This document shows, one piece after another, positions 4,735-12,734 of a DNA stretch of 64,000 nucleotides (position 1 is the first letter of the stretch; the number at the start of each line of letters is the position of its first letter). The translations under genes were made by a program, and so were the position numbers. The DNA is from an uncultured Dehalococcoidia bacterium (GTDB lineage: Bacteria; Chloroflexota; Dehalococcoidia; Lucifugimonadales; Lucifugimonadaceae). The stretch lies in assembly GCA_951812795.1 (NCBI GenBank), contig OX638325.1, forward strand, positions 2,504,277-2,568,276. The letters run 5' to 3'. The notes under the pieces are model-generated. The model was not told the origin of the DNA, made no database searches, and saw only the letters and a program-made list of their open reading frames with translations.

Positions 4735-5898
4735 TTACCAGTTGGTGAATGCTCCGTCGTTGCGTCTTAGTCGGGGTAGCCAACCGTGTGGGTCAGCGGC
4801 TCGGGTTTCGGCGACGTCCATGTCGATCTCGATGCCGAGTCCAGGGGCGTCTTGGCAGAAGGCGTATCCGTCTTCGAATCCGGCTTGGACGGGGAAGAGG
4901 TCGTTGAGGTAAGTGCCGGGTTCGATTGGCATTTCTTGGACGCCGACGTTGGTTGATGCCATGCAGAGTGCGACGCAGGCGGCGGTTGAGACGGGGCCGA
5001 GCGGATTGTGGGGGACGATATCGATGTAGTGGGTTTCGGCCCAGTGAGTGATCTTTGCGGCTTCGGTGATGCCTCCTACGATGCAGAGGTCGATACGGGC
5101 ATAGTCGATGAGTTCCTCTTCGATGACTTGGCGGAAGGGCCACTTTGAAACCCACTGTTCACCCGCGGCAATGGGTAAGCGTATTTGGTTGCGGAGGTTG
5201 CGATATGAGCCTGGGTTCTCAGATCGGATTGGGTCTTCGATGAAGTAGGGTTTGAACTCCTCTAGGTCCCTACACAGCTGGACGACGTGAGTCGGGTCGA
5301 GACGGGTGTGGACATCGAGGCAGAGTTGTATCTCGGGGCCGACGGCCTCGCGCACCCTCGCCATTCCTTCGACGGCGATGCGCATCGATTCGACTGGTTC
5401 GAGGCGACCTGTGTTTTCGATCTGATCGGTGTCGGACGTCTCGGGTTGGTGCCATCGGACGAATTTCCAGCCTTCGTCGACGCGTTGGACGGAGTTTTCG
5501 ACAAGCGCTTCGATGGTGTCGCCTTGGGTGTGCGCGTAGCAGACGACCTTGTTGCGGGTGGGGCCGCCCAAGAGGTTGTAGACAGGCCTGCCGACCGACT
5601 TGCCTTTGATGTCCCAGAGTGCGATGTCGATGGCGCTGATTGCGCAGCCGTATGTGCGCTCGGCGGGGAAGAAGTTGCCTCGGAACATCAATTGCCATAG
5701 GCGTTCGGTCTCCCACGGATCGGAACCGACGACGACTTCTGCGAGGTGGTCGATGGCCTGAACAATAGCGCGACCCTGCCCCAATGTTCCGACCTCACCA
5801 AGTCCGTAGATGCCGGCATCAGTGTCGACGCGGACGAAAAAGTAGACACGTCCGGAGTCGTCACGGATCGGGAGTGATCGGATTTGGGTTACTTTCAT
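4735..5898 (-). CDS. Enolase-superfamily dehydratase, mandelate racemase/galactonate dehydratase-like (copy 2)
   Basis: 387 residues starting at the ATG of MKVTQIRSLP. The frame is open further upstream to 5952, but that part runs through an intergenic repeat and has no counterpart in the sister genes. Catalytic residues: D195-x-H197 (LDVHTR), E221 (FIEDPIRSENP), E247 (AAGEQW), H297 (PHNPLGPV) and a final E in VQEMP. It is closest to copy 3, sharing long identical stretches such as KWPFRQVIEEELIDYARIDL. Same minus-strand array as copies 1 and 3, so probably co-transcribed from above 7161. Substrate not readable; an aldonate is the family-based guess. Confidence 0.9.
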   Translation of the reverse strand: MKVTQIRSLPIRDDSGRVYFFVRVDTDAGIYGLGEVGTLGQGRAIVQAIDHLAEVVVGSDPWETERLWQLMFRGNFFPAERTYGCAISAIDIALWDIKGKSVGRPVYNLLGGPTRNKVVCYAHTQGDTIEALVENSVQRVDEGWKFVRWHQPETSDTDQIENTGRLEPVESMRIAVEGMARVREAVGPEIQLCLDVHTRLDPTHVVQLCRDLEEFKPYFIEDPIRSENPGSYRNLRNQIRLPIAAGEQWVSKWPFRQVIEEELIDYARIDLCIVGGITEAAKITHWAETHYIDIVPHNPLGPVSTAACVALCMASTNVGVQEMPIEPGTYLNDLFPVQAGFEDGYAFCQDAPGLGIEIDMDVAETRAADPHGWLPRLRRNDGAFTNW

Positions 5899-5910
5899 TT
5901 GGTGGGATTG

Positions 5911-5992
5911 CCCCCTTTGTCCTTCGGACATTTCCCCCGTCAACGGGGGCAAGCCTTCGTCGGCTTCTGGATTCCGGCATTCACCGGAATGA
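5911..5992. repeat. Intergenic palindromic repeats between enolase-superfamily copies 2 and 3
   Basis: Contains the same TGTCC-TTC-GGACA hairpin and TTTCCCCCGT-CA-ACGGGGG palindrome as the spacer at 4580-4624, followed by a second hairpin with ATTCCGG and CCGGAAT arms (about 5970-5990). The near-identical block sits at the same place relative to both copies (just upstream of the ATG of copies 1 and 2), so it was probably duplicated with the gene. Confidence 0.7.
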
Positions 5993-5997
5993 CGGGT

Positions 5998-7161
5998 TTA
6001 CCAGTTGGTAAACGCGCCGTCGTTGCGGCGGAGTTGAGGTGGCCAGCCGTGGGGAACACCGGCGCGGGCTTCGGCGACGTCCATGTCCATTTCGATGCCG
6101 AGTCCGGGAGCGTCGTTGCAGAAGGAGTAGCCGTCTTCCCAGCCAATCTGGACGGGGAAGAGGTCGGTTAGGACCGTGCCGGGTTGGCGCGGCATTTCTT
6201 GGACGCCGACGTTGGTAGAAGCCATGCATAGCGAGACGCAGGCGGCGGCGGAAACGGGTCCGAGGGGATTGTGGGGGACGATGTCGATGTAGTGTGTTTC
6301 GGCCCAGTGGGTTATTTTGGCGGCTTCGGTGATGCCTCCGGCGATGCATAGGTCAATGCGGGCGTAATCGATGAGTTCCTCTTCGATGACCTGCCGGAAG
6401 GGCCACTTGGAGACCCATTGTTCTCCGGCGGCGATGGGTAAGTTAAATTGGTTGCGGAGGTTGCGGTATGAGGCGGGGTTTTCGGAGCGGAGCGGGTCTT
6501 CGATGAAATAGGGCTTGAACTCTTCGAGGTCTTTGCCCATCTGGACGATGTGCGCGGTGTCGAGACGGGTGTGTGCGTCGAGAAGGATCTGGATTTCGGG
6601 GCCGACGGCTTCGCGGACTCTGGACATCTGGTCGACGACTAGCCGCATGGATTCGACGGGTTCGAGCAGGGAGGTGCCGCTGTCTTCGAATCGGCCTGAG
6701 GTTTCGGGTAGTCCCCAGCGGACGAATTTCCAGCCCTCTTCCACGCGGTCGAGGCAGTTCTGCACGAGATCTTCGGTGGTTGCGCCTTGGGTGTGTGGGT
6801 AGGAGACGACTTTGTCGCGGACGGGTCCGCCGAGGAGTTTGTAGACGGGCATGTCGACGGATTTTCCCTTGATGTCCCAAAGGGCAATGTCGATGGCGCT
6901 GATGGCGCATCCGTAAACGCGGTCTGCCGGGAAGAAGTTGCCACGGAACATGAGCTGCCATAGGCGTTCGGTTTCCCAAGGGTCGGATCCAACGACGACT
7001 TCTGCGAGGTGGTCAATGGCCTCCATGATGGCGCGACCCATGCTTGCAATTCCGACTTCGCCGAGGCCGTGGATTCCGGCGTCGGTTTCGATGCGGACGA
7101 AGAGTGAGACTCCGCCGTTGTCGTTTCGGACGGGGACGTTCTTTACTTCGGTGACCTTCAT
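5998..7161 (-). CDS. Enolase-superfamily dehydratase, mandelate racemase/galactonate dehydratase-like (copy 3)
   Basis: 387 residues beginning MKVTEVKNVPVRN. The barrel carries LDAHTR (D-x-H), FIEDPLRSENP, AAGEQW, PHNPLGPV and VQEMP, so every metal ligand and both catalytic histidines of the galactonate dehydratase-type site are present. It is the first gene of the three-copy array. The 20s loop of the cap (NGGVSLFVRIETDAGIHGLGEVG) and residues around 150-165 (LPETSGRFEDSGTSLLEP) differ from the sisters, and these are regions that shape substrate choice in the family. The divergent spacer 7162-7374 should hold its promoter. Confidence 0.9.
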   Translation of the reverse strand: MKVTEVKNVPVRNDNGGVSLFVRIETDAGIHGLGEVGIASMGRAIMEAIDHLAEVVVGSDPWETERLWQLMFRGNFFPADRVYGCAISAIDIALWDIKGKSVDMPVYKLLGGPVRDKVVSYPHTQGATTEDLVQNCLDRVEEGWKFVRWGLPETSGRFEDSGTSLLEPVESMRLVVDQMSRVREAVGPEIQILLDAHTRLDTAHIVQMGKDLEEFKPYFIEDPLRSENPASYRNLRNQFNLPIAAGEQWVSKWPFRQVIEEELIDYARIDLCIAGGITEAAKITHWAETHYIDIVPHNPLGPVSAAACVSLCMASTNVGVQEMPRQPGTVLTDLFPVQIGWEDGYSFCNDAPGLGIEMDMDVAEARAGVPHGWPPQLRRNDGAFTNW

Positions 7162-7818: not shown

Positions 7819-8282
7819 TGAAGGCCATCAAAACCGTATTGGAAGCTCCGGAGGACGGTCAAGATGGATGGAACCATGCGATAATCGGGGTGGTGCACAT
7901 TTTGGTGTCGTTGGTGGTTGCTGTGCATTTGATTGCTTTGCGGCTGTAGGACTCTGGCGATGTCTGGACCGTGGTCAACTGCATCTCGTTGGTGGCGATA
8001 GCGTTGGCTTGCTACTTCAACTTGGAGCGGAAGCGAAAGAGCGATGCGAGCGGTGAAACAGGGATCACTAGGGAGTATCTAGAGTCGAATGTGTTGTATT
8101 TCGCGACGATGATTTTGGCGGCATTGTTCCTCTTCAACTGGTTGAATCTACTGGTCAGCGGGGCCAACGATGTCGGTGTAGAGGTGATGCACGATGTGGT
8201 ATGGGCAGTCGTGGACATCATGATCATCGTGGTATCGGGAGCTACTGAGGGGTACTTGTTGCAGGGGCATTCGGGGGAGTAG
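7818..8282 (+). pseudogene. Second small membrane protein, interrupted by an in-frame TAG
   Basis: GTG at 7818 overlaps the TAG stop of the previous gene by one base. The frame reads through a hydrophobic helix (GVVHILVSLVVAVHLIALRL), meets TAG at 7947-7949 and continues in the same frame with DSGDVWTVVNCISLVAIALACYFNLERKRK to the stop at 8280-8282. The part after the TAG lines up with the intact neighbour (YDDDSVVQVWDVLNYFMAVG), including the later helices (VLYFATMILAALFLF, VVDIMIIVVSGATEGYLL). Only the single TAG breaks it; no frameshift is seen. It is either a fresh nonsense mutation, a sequencing error or a readthrough site. An internal start for the second part (GTG at 7971) would give a 103-residue three-helix protein. 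Confidence 0.6.
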
Positions 8283-8436
8283 GGAACCACATCGAGAAAG
8301 TTGTCAACCGTTCGCGTTGATTTTTTGGATGAGTGCGGTTGCCTCCAACCCGCCATCCTTTGGGATCTGTAACTATCCGTGAGGTTCGCCATTTGCGAAC
8401 CGGACGTTTGTCGGGTGATGGTAGTCTGAGCTTGTA

Positions 8437-9360
8437 ATGACTGCTCTTGAAACTGCTCTTCCGATTCGCTCACTCGTCGAAGAAACGGCACAAATTATCC
8501 ACGGCGATGCCTTTGCTTGGTTAGAGAAAGCGCGACCGAACTCGATCCACGCGGTGGTGACGGATCCGCCCTACGGGTTGATCGAATACACACCGCGTGA
8601 AATTGAGAAGCTCCGCAGTGGTCGAGGAGGCGTTTGGCGCATCCCACCTGCGTTTGACAACGCCGTCCGAAAACCATTGCCTCGGTTCACGGTACTCAAG
8701 GATGGCGACAAGGAGCGCCTCGAGCAGTTTTTCGACCACCTTGCAAATCTGCTGATGCCGGTGTTGGTGCCAGGTGCGCATGTTTTCATCGCCACTAACC
8801 CATTAGTTTCCCATTTCGTGTATCTCCCATTCATTCGAGCCGGTTTTGAGAAGCGTGGGGAGATCGTCAGAGTTGTGCAAACGCTACGAGGCGGAGATCG
8901 ACCAAAAAACGCACACGAGGAATTCGATTCAGTCTCGGTGATGCCTCGCTCTTGTTGGGAACCTTGGGGATTGTTCCGCAAACCGTGTGAAGGACGTGTT
9001 CAAGATAATCTCCGCAAATGGAAGACCGGGGGGTTGATGCGTCTGTCCGATTCGGAACCGTTTCGCGACCTCATCTACTCGTCTCCCGCCAGAGGATTTG
9101 AAAAACAAGCAGCGCCGCACCCTTCACTGAAACCTCAAGATTTCATGCGACAGATAGTGCGAGCATCCCTACCGCTGAGCGAAGGATCGATTTTGGACCC
9201 GTTCATGGGTTCGGGTTCAACTGTCGCGGCCGCTACATCATGCGGGCTCGACAGCATCGGGATCGAAATCGACTCGGAGTACTTCGAACTCGCAAAATCC
9301 GCGATTCCACAACTCGCCATGTACGAACCCAAAAGGACAAGACAAATTGGATCGGGATGA
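8437..9360 (+). CDS. DNA methyltransferase, N6-adenine or N4-cytosine class beta
   Basis: 307 residues. The catalytic motif IV, TDPPYG, is at residues 42-47, and the S-adenosylmethionine-binding motif I, LDPFMGSGST, is near residue 253 at the C-terminal end. This order is the beta class of amino-methyltransferases. DPPY is the usual adenine-N6 form, but some N4-cytosine enzymes share it. The region between, with a variable middle from about 60 to 230, should hold the target recognition domain. ATG start with no obvious ribosome site. The next gene starts inside its 3' end (14-base overlap), which ties the two together as a probable restriction-modification pair. Recognition sequence unknown. 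Confidence 0.9.
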   Translation: MTALETALPIRSLVEETAQIIHGDAFAWLEKARPNSIHAVVTDPPYGLIEYTPREIEKLRSGRGGVWRIPPAFDNAVRKPLPRFTVLKDGDKERLEQFFDHLANLLMPVLVPGAHVFIATNPLVSHFVYLPFIRAGFEKRGEIVRVVQTLRGGDRPKNAHEEFDSVSVMPRSCWEPWGLFRKPCEGRVQDNLRKWKTGGLMRLSDSEPFRDLIYSSPARGFEKQAAPHPSLKPQDFMRQIVRASLPLSEGSILDPFMGSGSTVAAATSCGLDSIGIEIDSEYFELAKSAIPQLAMYEPKRTRQIGSG

Positions 9361-9955
9361 ATGGTTCGATTTGTCTTTGCCCTTGCCACCCGGCTTGACG
9401 GTATCGGCGATCCGAAGAGCGGTCGATTACATCGAGCGAGAACTCTCCGAATTGGTCGACATCTACCACGAACAGATGAACGTGTTCAGCGCTATCGTCG
9501 GGATTTACGGAACCAAAGCGCTAGATTCTGTCAGCAACTACGAAAAACATCGAAACGTCGACACTGCGCAACAACGGTTTCCCGATTTGATTCGGCGTGG
9601 GTCCGGCCCCGACCCCTTTCCTGATGATTCGTTAGAGAGTAAAGCAAGCAAACGACCATGGGCCGTCCAATCCCACTACAATCACCCCGGTTGGTACATC
9701 ATATGGCGATATCTGGTCGACTCGACTGAGTCGCTAGAGGCGGGCAAACCTGTCATCGTGTGGCGAGTGGACATTGCATTTGTTGAGGAATCGGATTGGA
9801 AATACGAATCGAGCCGCGCAGGACCCGAACAGGGAGGCAGAACCCACACGTTCGGCTTGCACCGACCGGCGACGAAACTACGCGGCAAAGCGGTTTATAA
9901 GCGTGCCGACGTGGTTCTTTCCGGTGGTAAACCCATCCCCGTTAATGGGGATTAA
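9347..9955 (+). CDS. Unrecognised protein coupled to the methyltransferase; candidate restriction endonuclease
   Basis: 202 residues, start ATG (MDRDEWFDLSLPLPPGL) lying inside the methyltransferase 3' end, which implies translational coupling. I do not recognise the family. Features seen: an N-terminal helical part (residues 20-60), a Trp/Tyr-rich core (NHPGWYIIWRYLVDS), then IVWRVDIAFVEESDWKYE, where an Asp followed ten residues later by D-x-K could be a PD-(D/E)xK type nuclease site, then GGRTHTFGLHRPATKLRGKAVYKRADVVL with several basic residues. A nuclease role is inferred from position only; it could also be a control or specificity protein. It converges with the next gene, overlapping it by 4 bases. 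Confidence 0.8.
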   Translation: MDRDEWFDLSLPLPPGLTVSAIRRAVDYIERELSELVDIYHEQMNVFSAIVGIYGTKALDSVSNYEKHRNVDTAQQRFPDLIRRGSGPDPFPDDSLESKASKRPWAVQSHYNHPGWYIIWRYLVDSTESLEAGKPVIVWRVDIAFVEESDWKYESSRAGPEQGGRTHTFGLHRPATKLRGKAVYKRADVVLSGGKPIPVNGD

Positions 9956-11127
9956 CCCACCAACCAACCCGCCTCTTCCTTCGCAGGCGGCACAATGAAC
10001 CTTCCCGCCCCTTCCCGCCTGGGAAACGGATTCCGTCGTCGTCGTTCCGGCTCCGGCGGATTTGCCTGCAGCCGCGCTAACGCGTCCTCGTCAATCGAAA
10101 TACCCAGACCCGGCTCGTCGGACAGCTGAATGAAGCCGTCCTCGATTGTGTGGTTGAAGTTGATGCACTGTTCGCGACCCGGGTCTACGACCTCCATGAT
10201 CATGTGGTTGGGGAGAGCTGCGGCGAGGTGTGCGGCGTAATTTGCTTGGCAGTTCATCATCGTGACTGGCAACTCATACGCGTAGCAGAGGTTGGCCACC
10301 TGCCTGCACCCGGTGAAACCGCTGTGACCGGCGCTGATGTTGACAACGTCGACGGCTTGTTGGGATACGAGGGGGTAGAAATCGCCGATGTGGTTGAGGT
10401 TTTCGCCGGAAGCTACAGCTGCAGAGATGTTGCGTGAGACCTGTCGGAGGCCGTCGAAGTCCCAGCGTCGGGCGGGTTCTTCTGCCCAGGTGATGTCGAA
10501 GTCTTCTTCGATGCGTTGGATGCGGATGATCGCTTCTTTGGCCGACCAGTATTCGTTGCTGTCGATCAGTAGCCGAGGCCGATCGGAGCCGACGCTCAGC
10601 GCTTCCTGCATGATGCCGATACGCCGGAGGTCAGTCTTCATGTCGAGTCCGACTTTGAGCTTGCCACCGTCGACACCGTGCTCGGCCATTCGGCGATAAA
10701 AGGCGAAGATTGCGTCGTCGTCGAGGCAGAGGTCGATGCCGCTGGCGTAGGCCTTTGTCATTCCTTCACGCGCGCCAAAGGTCTGCCACAATGGTTCGTC
10801 AGCGATCTTGGCTTTCAGGTCCCAGAGGGCAGTGTCGATGGCGTTGATCGCGCCGTTCATCTCGCCTTCGTTTCCGCCCTTGAATACGAAGTCGACGAGC
10901 CGCATCCACAGTCCGACGACGGATCGAGGGTCTTCGCCTTCAATCAGGTGGAAAAGACGCCCCACAGCCGGATTGCCGCCGGGTGCGACGCCGGTTATTC
11001 CTTCGTCGGTCTCGATCCAAAGGACCGAACCGCCGGCGATGTCCTCGCCGACCACTCCGTTGGCATCGCCGATGGGGCGGTCCATTTTCATCTCGTATTG
11101 TTCTACGCGGTATCCGGTGATTTTCAT
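9952..11127 (-). CDS. Enolase-superfamily enzyme, K-x-K (muconate lactonising/racemase) type, copy A
   Basis: 391 residues from the ATG of MKITGYRVEQ; the frame is open to 11187, but the shared MKIT start of the neighbour supports 11127. Barrel residues: K156-x-K158 in GKLKVG, D189 and N191 in IDSNEYW, E216 in WAEEPARRWD and E242 in ASGENL. This is the mandelate racemase/MLE type of site with Lys-x-Lys on one face, unlike the D-x-H genes at 3.4-7.2 kb. The other-face base is probably within NISAGHSGFTG. It may be an acid-sugar dehydratase or a racemase. Downstream partner of 11263-12489, separated by a 135-base spacer with a hairpin. Confidence 0.88.
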   Translation of the reverse strand: MKITGYRVEQYEMKMDRPIGDANGVVGEDIAGGSVLWIETDEGITGVAPGGNPAVGRLFHLIEGEDPRSVVGLWMRLVDFVFKGGNEGEMNGAINAIDTALWDLKAKIADEPLWQTFGAREGMTKAYASGIDLCLDDDAIFAFYRRMAEHGVDGGKLKVGLDMKTDLRRIGIMQEALSVGSDRPRLLIDSNEYWSAKEAIIRIQRIEEDFDITWAEEPARRWDFDGLRQVSRNISAAVASGENLNHIGDFYPLVSQQAVDVVNISAGHSGFTGCRQVANLCYAYELPVTMMNCQANYAAHLAAALPNHMIMEVVDPGREQCINFNHTIEDGFIQLSDEPGLGISIDEDALARLQANPPEPERRRRNPFPRREGAGRFIVPPAKEEAGWLVG

Positions 11128-11207
11128 GGTGTTCTTGGTTCCGGGATTGGTTAGTTTCGATTGTGTTTCGGGCACCCCCTGCGCCATCGCTTCGTAACCC
11201 CTTCTTA

Positions 11208-11262: not shown

Positions 11263-12489
11263 TCAATATGCGTGGCGGCCTTCGGACTGTCCGGTGATGC
11301 CGCGTACGGCTTCTGCTTTTTCCTCTTCGGTTGGCGGAACTTCATACAGTCCGGCGCCGGGGCGACGTCCGAACGGGCTCGGGCCGGCACCGGGCGGGAT
11401 CGCGTCGACCTGTGCTTTCGCCATCTCCTCGTGGTCGATTTCGATGCCGAGTCCGGGTTTGTCGCCAAGGATGGCTTGTCCGTTCTCGAACGTGATGTCG
11501 ATCGAGGCGACGCGATTTTCGGATGCTGCGTTGCCCACTTCGATGGTGACGTAGTTGGGAATCACGGTTGCGAGGTGGGCGTGGTGGTGTCCGGCAGAAC
11601 CGCCGAGGGTGACCGGCAGATTGAAGCCGTGCGCGGCATCAGCGATCTGGAGAGCGCAGGTGATGCCGGTCATTCCGGAGCCGACTTGGATTATGTCGGC
11701 GGAGCGGTTGTGGAAGTACGGGAGGAAATCACCTAGCGTGTCGAGGTTTTCGCCAGCGCAGACGGGAGTTTTGATCGCGTCGCAAATACGGCGAAGACCG
11801 AGGAAATCCCAACGGCGCGCCGGTTCTTCGATCCACATGAGATCGAACTGCTCTTCCATCTCGCGGACTTTGCGGATGGCTTGTTTCGGCGACCAGTATT
11901 CGTTGGCATCGACCACAAGACTGGGTTCGTCGGTGTTAATGCTTAGCGCATCCTTCATGATGCCGATACGACGGAGATCGAAGTCTTGGTCGAGTCCGAC
12001 TTTGAGCTTTCCGTCTTTGAACCCGTAGTCCTCGGCCATCCCGCGGTAGAAATCGAAGATCTCTTCGTCGGAAAGCGGCATGTCGAGGCCGCTGGCATAG
12101 GCGTTGATTGGCTGCTTAACTCCGCCGAGGGTTTTCCATAGCGGCTCGTCGTTGGATTTCGCCTTTAGATCCCACAATGCGATGTCGAGAGCGGAGATGG
12201 CGTCGTTAGCGATGCCGTCGTGCCCGCCCTTGAAGTGCTTGTTGACCATTCGCTGCCAGAGGCCGGTGACGCGTCGCGGGTCTTGTCCGATGAGTACGCC
12301 CTCGACCAGCGAGTTGATGATGCCGATGGCACCGCCGCCGCCCATAGAGATTCCGGTGAGTTCGGTGTCCGTGTGGAGCTCGATTACGCAGCCACTCGCG
12401 CGGGCGCGGCCCATCGGAGAGTTGGCGTCGCCCATCCGGCGGGGCATCGGGTACTGGAAGAGCGCAGAGGATACGCCGGTGATCTTCAT
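11263..12489 (-). CDS. Enolase-superfamily enzyme, K-x-K (muconate lactonising/racemase) type, copy B
   Basis: 408 residues from the ATG of MKITGVSSALFQYPMP; an open extension to 12603 looks non-coding. It shares with copy A the GKLKVGLD (K-x-K), VDANEYWSPKQAI, WIEEPARRWDF and CAGENLDTLGDF blocks, so the magnesium ligands and Lys base are kept. After the barrel it has a tail of about 35 residues (PPGAGPSPFGRRPGAGLYEVPPTEEEKAEAVRG), similar in kind to copy A's tail. The pair probably arose by duplication and may work on related substrates or on opposite isomers. First gene of a two-gene minus-strand unit. Confidence 0.88.
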   Translation of the reverse strand: MKITGVSSALFQYPMPRRMGDANSPMGRARASGCVIELHTDTELTGISMGGGGAIGIINSLVEGVLIGQDPRRVTGLWQRMVNKHFKGGHDGIANDAISALDIALWDLKAKSNDEPLWKTLGGVKQPINAYASGLDMPLSDEEIFDFYRGMAEDYGFKDGKLKVGLDQDFDLRRIGIMKDALSINTDEPSLVVDANEYWSPKQAIRKVREMEEQFDLMWIEEPARRWDFLGLRRICDAIKTPVCAGENLDTLGDFLPYFHNRSADIIQVGSGMTGITCALQIADAAHGFNLPVTLGGSAGHHHAHLATVIPNYVTIEVGNAASENRVASIDITFENGQAILGDKPGLGIEIDHEEMAKAQVDAIPPGAGPSPFGRRPGAGLYEVPPTEEEKAEAVRGITGQSEGRHAY

Positions 12490-12734
12490 TTCGACCTTTC
12501 GATATTGGCTCTTAACGTTCGGCAGAACCGCCAAATGGGAAACAGATCCCAAAGGGGTCACGTCAAGCGTTGATTCTTGCACACTTTCGAAGCGCAATGT
12601 CAACCAAACGACGAGTATTTACGTATCAAGGGTGTGCGGTGGCCCAACGCAAGGGCGATGAGGTCTTGTCCGTTAAAATCAGAACGTCAACTAGCCGCTG
12701 CGTCGGCTTAGTGTCGTTTCGCCGAAATACAGGC

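Follow-up and report, generated by a model that had tools for sequence, protein, structure and literature searches.

Controller-type HTH genes are typical of conventional Type II restriction-modification systems, and NaeI is a conventional restriction enzyme whose active-site residues follow the DxK pattern. In the beta-class family, DPPY in methyltransferase motif IV goes with N6-adenine as the target. Among characterised systems, HindIII and EcoVIII (plasmid pEC156) have the same general organisation and the same beta-class N6-adenine type of methyltransferase as the locus described here, as set out in two reports (PMC4743918, PMC5974420). The likeness to EcoVIII extends to its plasmid setting, as relatives of our system also are found on small enterobacterial plasmids, but a comparison with plasmid methyltransferases places our methyltransferase in a clade separate from those of HindIII and EcoVIII. 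The locus lies in a stretch of 64,000 nucleotides analysed as a whole (the window; positions 2504277-2568276 of the genome of the host, a sponge-associated SAR202 bacterium, which consists of one 2.61 Mb contig). A preliminary description had proposed that it encodes a methyltransferase and an unrecognised restriction enzyme as a Type II pair, a proposal that the coupling, fold, residues, selection and mobility documented below support.

An inserted methyltransferase gene and its overlapping partner

The first gene, M (8437-9360, + strand; ATG start, 307 aa), encodes an exocyclic amino DNA methyltransferase. Its catalytic motif IV (DPPYG, 8563-8577, + strand) is near the N-terminus and its AdoMet-binding motif I (DPFMGSGS, 9196-9219, + strand) is near the C-terminus; motif IV lies N-terminal to motifs X and I, the order of the beta class. 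Matches to PADLOC MTase_II PDLC03215 (380 bits) and to the Pfam N6_N4_Mtase domain (65.7 bits, cut-off 26.7) agree with this class, which also had been assigned in the preliminary description. Given the DPPY motif, the target base of M is probably the N6 of adenine. The clade to which M belongs is well delimited, with identities of at least 51% inside and about 36% or less outside when compared with plasmid methyltransferases. A methyltransferase of this clade, 51% identical, also is encoded by a Halorubrum tailed virus (OP630574.1, 25767-26669; match H101 in the phage collection), where it is possibly an anti-restriction enzyme.

The second gene, R (9347-9955, + strand; TTG start, 202 aa), encodes a predicted PD-(D/E)XK restriction endonuclease. 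The coordinates of the two ORFs confirm the 14-base overlap noted earlier (9347-9360, exactly 14 bases), and a Shine-Dalgarno-like AAAAGGA (9331-9337, + strand) is present 9 bases 5´ of the TTG. M would be translated first and, since the TTG of R lies inside the end of M, R probably would be expressed by translational coupling, an order that would help protect the host when the pair enters a new cell.

We searched R against the Pfam (HNH included), NCBIfam and PADLOC families and the PDB sequences and obtained no match. Used as a profile against families, PHROG and PDB sequences, R gave no meaningful match either, and the single hit of R in PHROG was at chance level (E 0.29). The protein thus falls outside the families of these libraries, in line with the preliminary description, which could not place it, and none of these searches returned a non-nuclease family for it. 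Restriction enzymes as a rule resemble no other proteins in sequence (PMC548270), so the missing family match of R by itself is unsurprising.

To define the insertion, we compared the flanks with those of sister genomes. The same flanking genes are 124 and 82 bases apart in two sisters (G002 and G006) and about 1.69 kb apart in the window; because they nearly abut in both sisters, the M-R pair is a discrete insertion, a restriction-modification unit of about 1.7 kb (8274-9955). The insertion carries M and R only, with no ATPase/helicase or specificity subunit, which separates it from Type I and Type III systems, and no integrase was found within it. In another sister, G005, the same chromosomal site (L144, G005:C9:5400-7200, locus 412-1217) is occupied by a gene for a PIN-domain (VapC-like) protein together with a small partner gene, which suggests a small hotspot at which defence or toxin-antitoxin genes insert. 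Paralogues of the mandelate racemase/muconate lactonizing (enolase) superfamily, confirmed by Pfam, lie on both sides of the pair (5998-7161, 9952-11187 and 11263-12603, - strand), and translation similarity indicates that 4735-5952 probably encodes a fourth.

Recurrence of the pair in other genomes

A single scan of 84,980 genomes identified 13 R loci with 53-99% identity, in SAR202, another Dehalococcoidia, Sulfuritalea, other Gammaproteobacteria, Sphingosinicella, Gemmatimonadetes and Acidobacteria. The distribution is sparse and patchy: R was present in 3 of 149 relatives and in 6 of 347 genomes of an Acidobacteria draw, and genome searches recovered one close R (that of the host itself) and two distant ones in the host phylum, and one close and one distant relative in the class of Sulfuritalea. 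The same M-R pair, with 98% protein identity, is found in a SAR202 genome of the same genus (bin127, public record MPNN01000007) from a study of the sponge Aplysina aerophoba, in which restriction-modification genes were reported to be enriched in uncultured sponge-associated bacteria (PMC5649159). No close-family relatives of R were found in plasmid and phage records.

Each of the 18 tabulated loci, which span Chloroflexota, Pseudomonadota, Gemmatimonadota and Acidobacteriota, has M directly upstream of R in the same orientation, with aligned-end spacings of -10 to +124 bases. The divergence of M and that of R are correlated across these loci (Mantel r 0.61, 0 of 5000 permutations). Given this recurrence across phyla, the pairing is far beyond chance, and it bears out the earlier remark that the tight coupling with a methyltransferase resembles a type II arrangement, in which the two genes are separate and closely linked.

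Several loci were of note for their setting or state. One complete pair (L130, 3068-5567) is on a virus-labelled IMG/VR contig, where it adjoins an IS1595-family transposase and has a lysozyme-like ORF nearby; it possibly is carried by a phage or transposon. Another pair (L011) is located between genes predicted from their translations to be dnaN- and gyrB-like. In an acidobacterial locus (L128, 775-1712), R is intact and only about 60 N-terminal residues of M are left; decay, an error in the assembly or a different methyltransferase that provides protection are possible reasons. In L131, R is present as a fragment.

Profile searches also detected distant R-like proteins with 24-27% identity. 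These are encoded beside the same M family in other orders: convergent in L018, L019 and plasmids, divergent in L123 and in tandem in L022. A plasmid search with the R of L019 found relatives beside the M clade in small plasmids of Klebsiella and Citrobacter as well as in plasmids of Gordonia, Mycobacterium, Rhizobium and Acidiphilium, all annotated as hypothetical proteins only. The occurrence of distant R proteins beside the same M family in varied orders indicates that the partnership between the methyltransferase clade and the endonuclease family outlives gene-order change. A stand-alone HTH gene directly precedes R in the Acidiphilium plasmid, and in the R of L123 (1249-2148) an HTH with a match to PADLOC Control_protein (5e-9) is fused to the N-terminus, through which this endonuclease may regulate its own expression.

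These data bear on the possibility that M acts alone as a regulatory methyltransferase and that the second gene is unrelated or accessory and adjacent by chance. Orphan methyltransferases are common and the second protein has no family match, both of which fit such an arrangement, but the strict co-occurrence of the two genes at 18 loci of four phyla, their correlated divergence, the persistence of distant partners in other gene orders, and the PD...ExK residues and fold of R make it extremely improbable.

Active site and fold of R

Given the pairing, we looked for residues of R that are retained across the family. P79, D80, E97 and K99 are invariant in three alignments of 15, 18 and 22 sequences (A1, A2 and A3), and the resulting P-D-(x16)-E-x-K (codons 9581-9643, + strand), invariant in close and distant relatives alike, is the classic PD-(D/E)XK pattern. 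The 18-sequence alignment, which takes in close and distant members, shows invariance at P14, L17, S48, P79, D80, E97, K99, H110, R165 and T168; P79, D80, E97, K99 and H110 are retained in the 22-sequence alignment. D80, E97 and K99 would be the metal and catalytic residues. E42 (codon 9470-9472, + strand), at the end of a long helix, is invariant in the close family (A1), and its conservation was not found in the distant members of the 18-sequence alignment; by inference, it is possibly a residue like Glu45 of EcoRV.

The preliminary description had placed a nuclease-like D...D-x-K site elsewhere, in VDIAFVEESDWKYE (residues 141-154 of R; 9767-9808, + strand). This segment is a conserved strand and not a catalytic motif: D142 is replaced by H in L006, D150 is replaced by H in L013, and K152 is missing in distant members, whereas the invariant site is about 45 residues upstream.

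An AlphaFold model of R built from 22 sequences had a mean pLDDT of 89.4, with all five models at 88-89. In the model, E97 and K99 are on a strand (95-101) and D80 directly precedes another (81-83), giving the alpha-beta core of PD-(D/E)XK proteins with (D/E)xK on the central strand. Structural alignment gave Z scores of 9.7 for NaeI, 7.7 for SfiI, 7.3 for DpnI, 7.2 for SwaI, 7.2 for 3NDH, 6.8 for NhoI, 6.6 for EcoRV, 6.1 for BglI, 6.0 for HincII and 5.7 for NlaIV, but a best Z near 8 is common for any model, so the evidence for the fold is the uniform list together with the invariant motif and not the top Z alone. Lower matches, down to Z 3.4, were Holliday-junction resolvases (one at 4.4), PvuII, Sau3AI and SPARDA nucleases. 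All PDB matches at Z 9.7-3.4 are PD-(D/E)XK nucleases and unrelated phosphatases appear from Z 3.2, such that the structure-prediction check against PD-(D/E)XK proposed in the preliminary description returned nothing but nucleases of this superfamily above Z 3.3. With Foldseek, nothing was found at E < 0.001; the best values were 0.064 (BglI, 22-sequence model) and 0.022 (SfiI, first model).

The presence of DpnI, NhoI and a Holliday-junction resolvase among the fold matches (Z 7.3, 6.8 and 4.4, respectively) would be in line with R being a modification-dependent nuclease (DpnI- or NhoI-like) or a repair nuclease of the MutH, Hjc or Vsr kind, with DNA that carries methylation or damage at the M site as its substrate. 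However, an enzyme that cuts methylated DNA would turn on the host if encoded next to its own methyltransferase, the best fold match is a conventional restriction enzyme, and the controller-type HTH of a relative is typical of conventional Type II systems; we regard this alternative as barely plausible. We also considered whether R is an inactive remnant beside a working methyltransferase. Decay is seen in the family (the R fragment of L131 and the M remnant of L128), but in the window the conserved residues are all intact and the frame is open, and dN/dS values between two SAR202 genomes are low for R (0.083) and M (0.081), indicating that both proteins are maintained by purifying selection. 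An inactive R is thus very unlikely.

Predicted role and nearest known systems

Collectively, the pairing, fold, conserved residues, selection and mobility support a reading as methyltransferase and restriction endonuclease, and we conclude with high confidence that M and R form a compact, horizontally acquired Type II restriction-modification system. R very probably is a restriction endonuclease, as predicted from the pairing, motif and modelled fold. The pair is predicted, almost certainly, to defend the host against foreign DNA as restriction-modification systems usually do. By analogy with the families, M would methylate one base on each strand of a short target sequence wherever this occurs in the host genome, and R, probably working as a homodimer with Mg2+, would cut the site of M in incoming unmethylated DNA.

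To look for a signature of the target site, we analysed palindrome avoidance in the host (864 kb), in sisters that lack the system (300 kb) and in further carriers (780 kb). No palindrome was specifically depleted in the host relative to sisters without the system, with CGATCG, CTCGAG and similar sequences low in carriers and non-carriers alike, and gapped palindromes in the same data gave nothing beyond multiple testing. With a recent acquisition, missing depletion is expected, yet it adds no positive support for the system. A literature search for a SAR202 methylome or a characterised R homologue found nothing.

As far as the libraries searched show (Pfam, NCBIfam, PADLOC and PDB, with REBASE outside the comparison), the endonuclease subfamily is new. 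More tentatively, and with some doubt, R may found a distinct Type II endonuclease family that has spread horizontally through at least four phyla with one methyltransferase clade and has a recognition sequence unassigned to characterised enzymes. With these assignments, hypothetical proteins beside one methyltransferase clade are now predicted to be a family of endonucleases, with the active-site residues specified, and the pair could yield a new restriction enzyme specificity.

Systems of this kind are already well known and the biology itself is familiar. The best structural match, the endonuclease domain of NaeI (PDB 1EV7, 1IAW; Z 9.7, 142 residues, rmsd 4.0), has the PD-(D/E)XK core in common with R and aligns over nearly all of it. 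In contrast to this agreement, the identity is 11%, NaeI was not matched by R among the PDB sequences, R has ExK where NaeI has DxK, and R aligns to the N-terminal endonuclease domain only, lacking a counterpart of the NaeI C-terminal domain. Similarly, EcoRV, HincII, SwaI, SfiI, BglI and the ThaI-type enzyme (3NDH) share the core fold (Z 6.0-7.7, 135-162 residues) but have 9-14% identity and no sequence-level match. Several distant R proteins have E values of 2e-5 to 5e-3 with the PADLOC REase_II model PDLC03564, which they match in the catalytic core, whereas the R of the window itself does not reach it.
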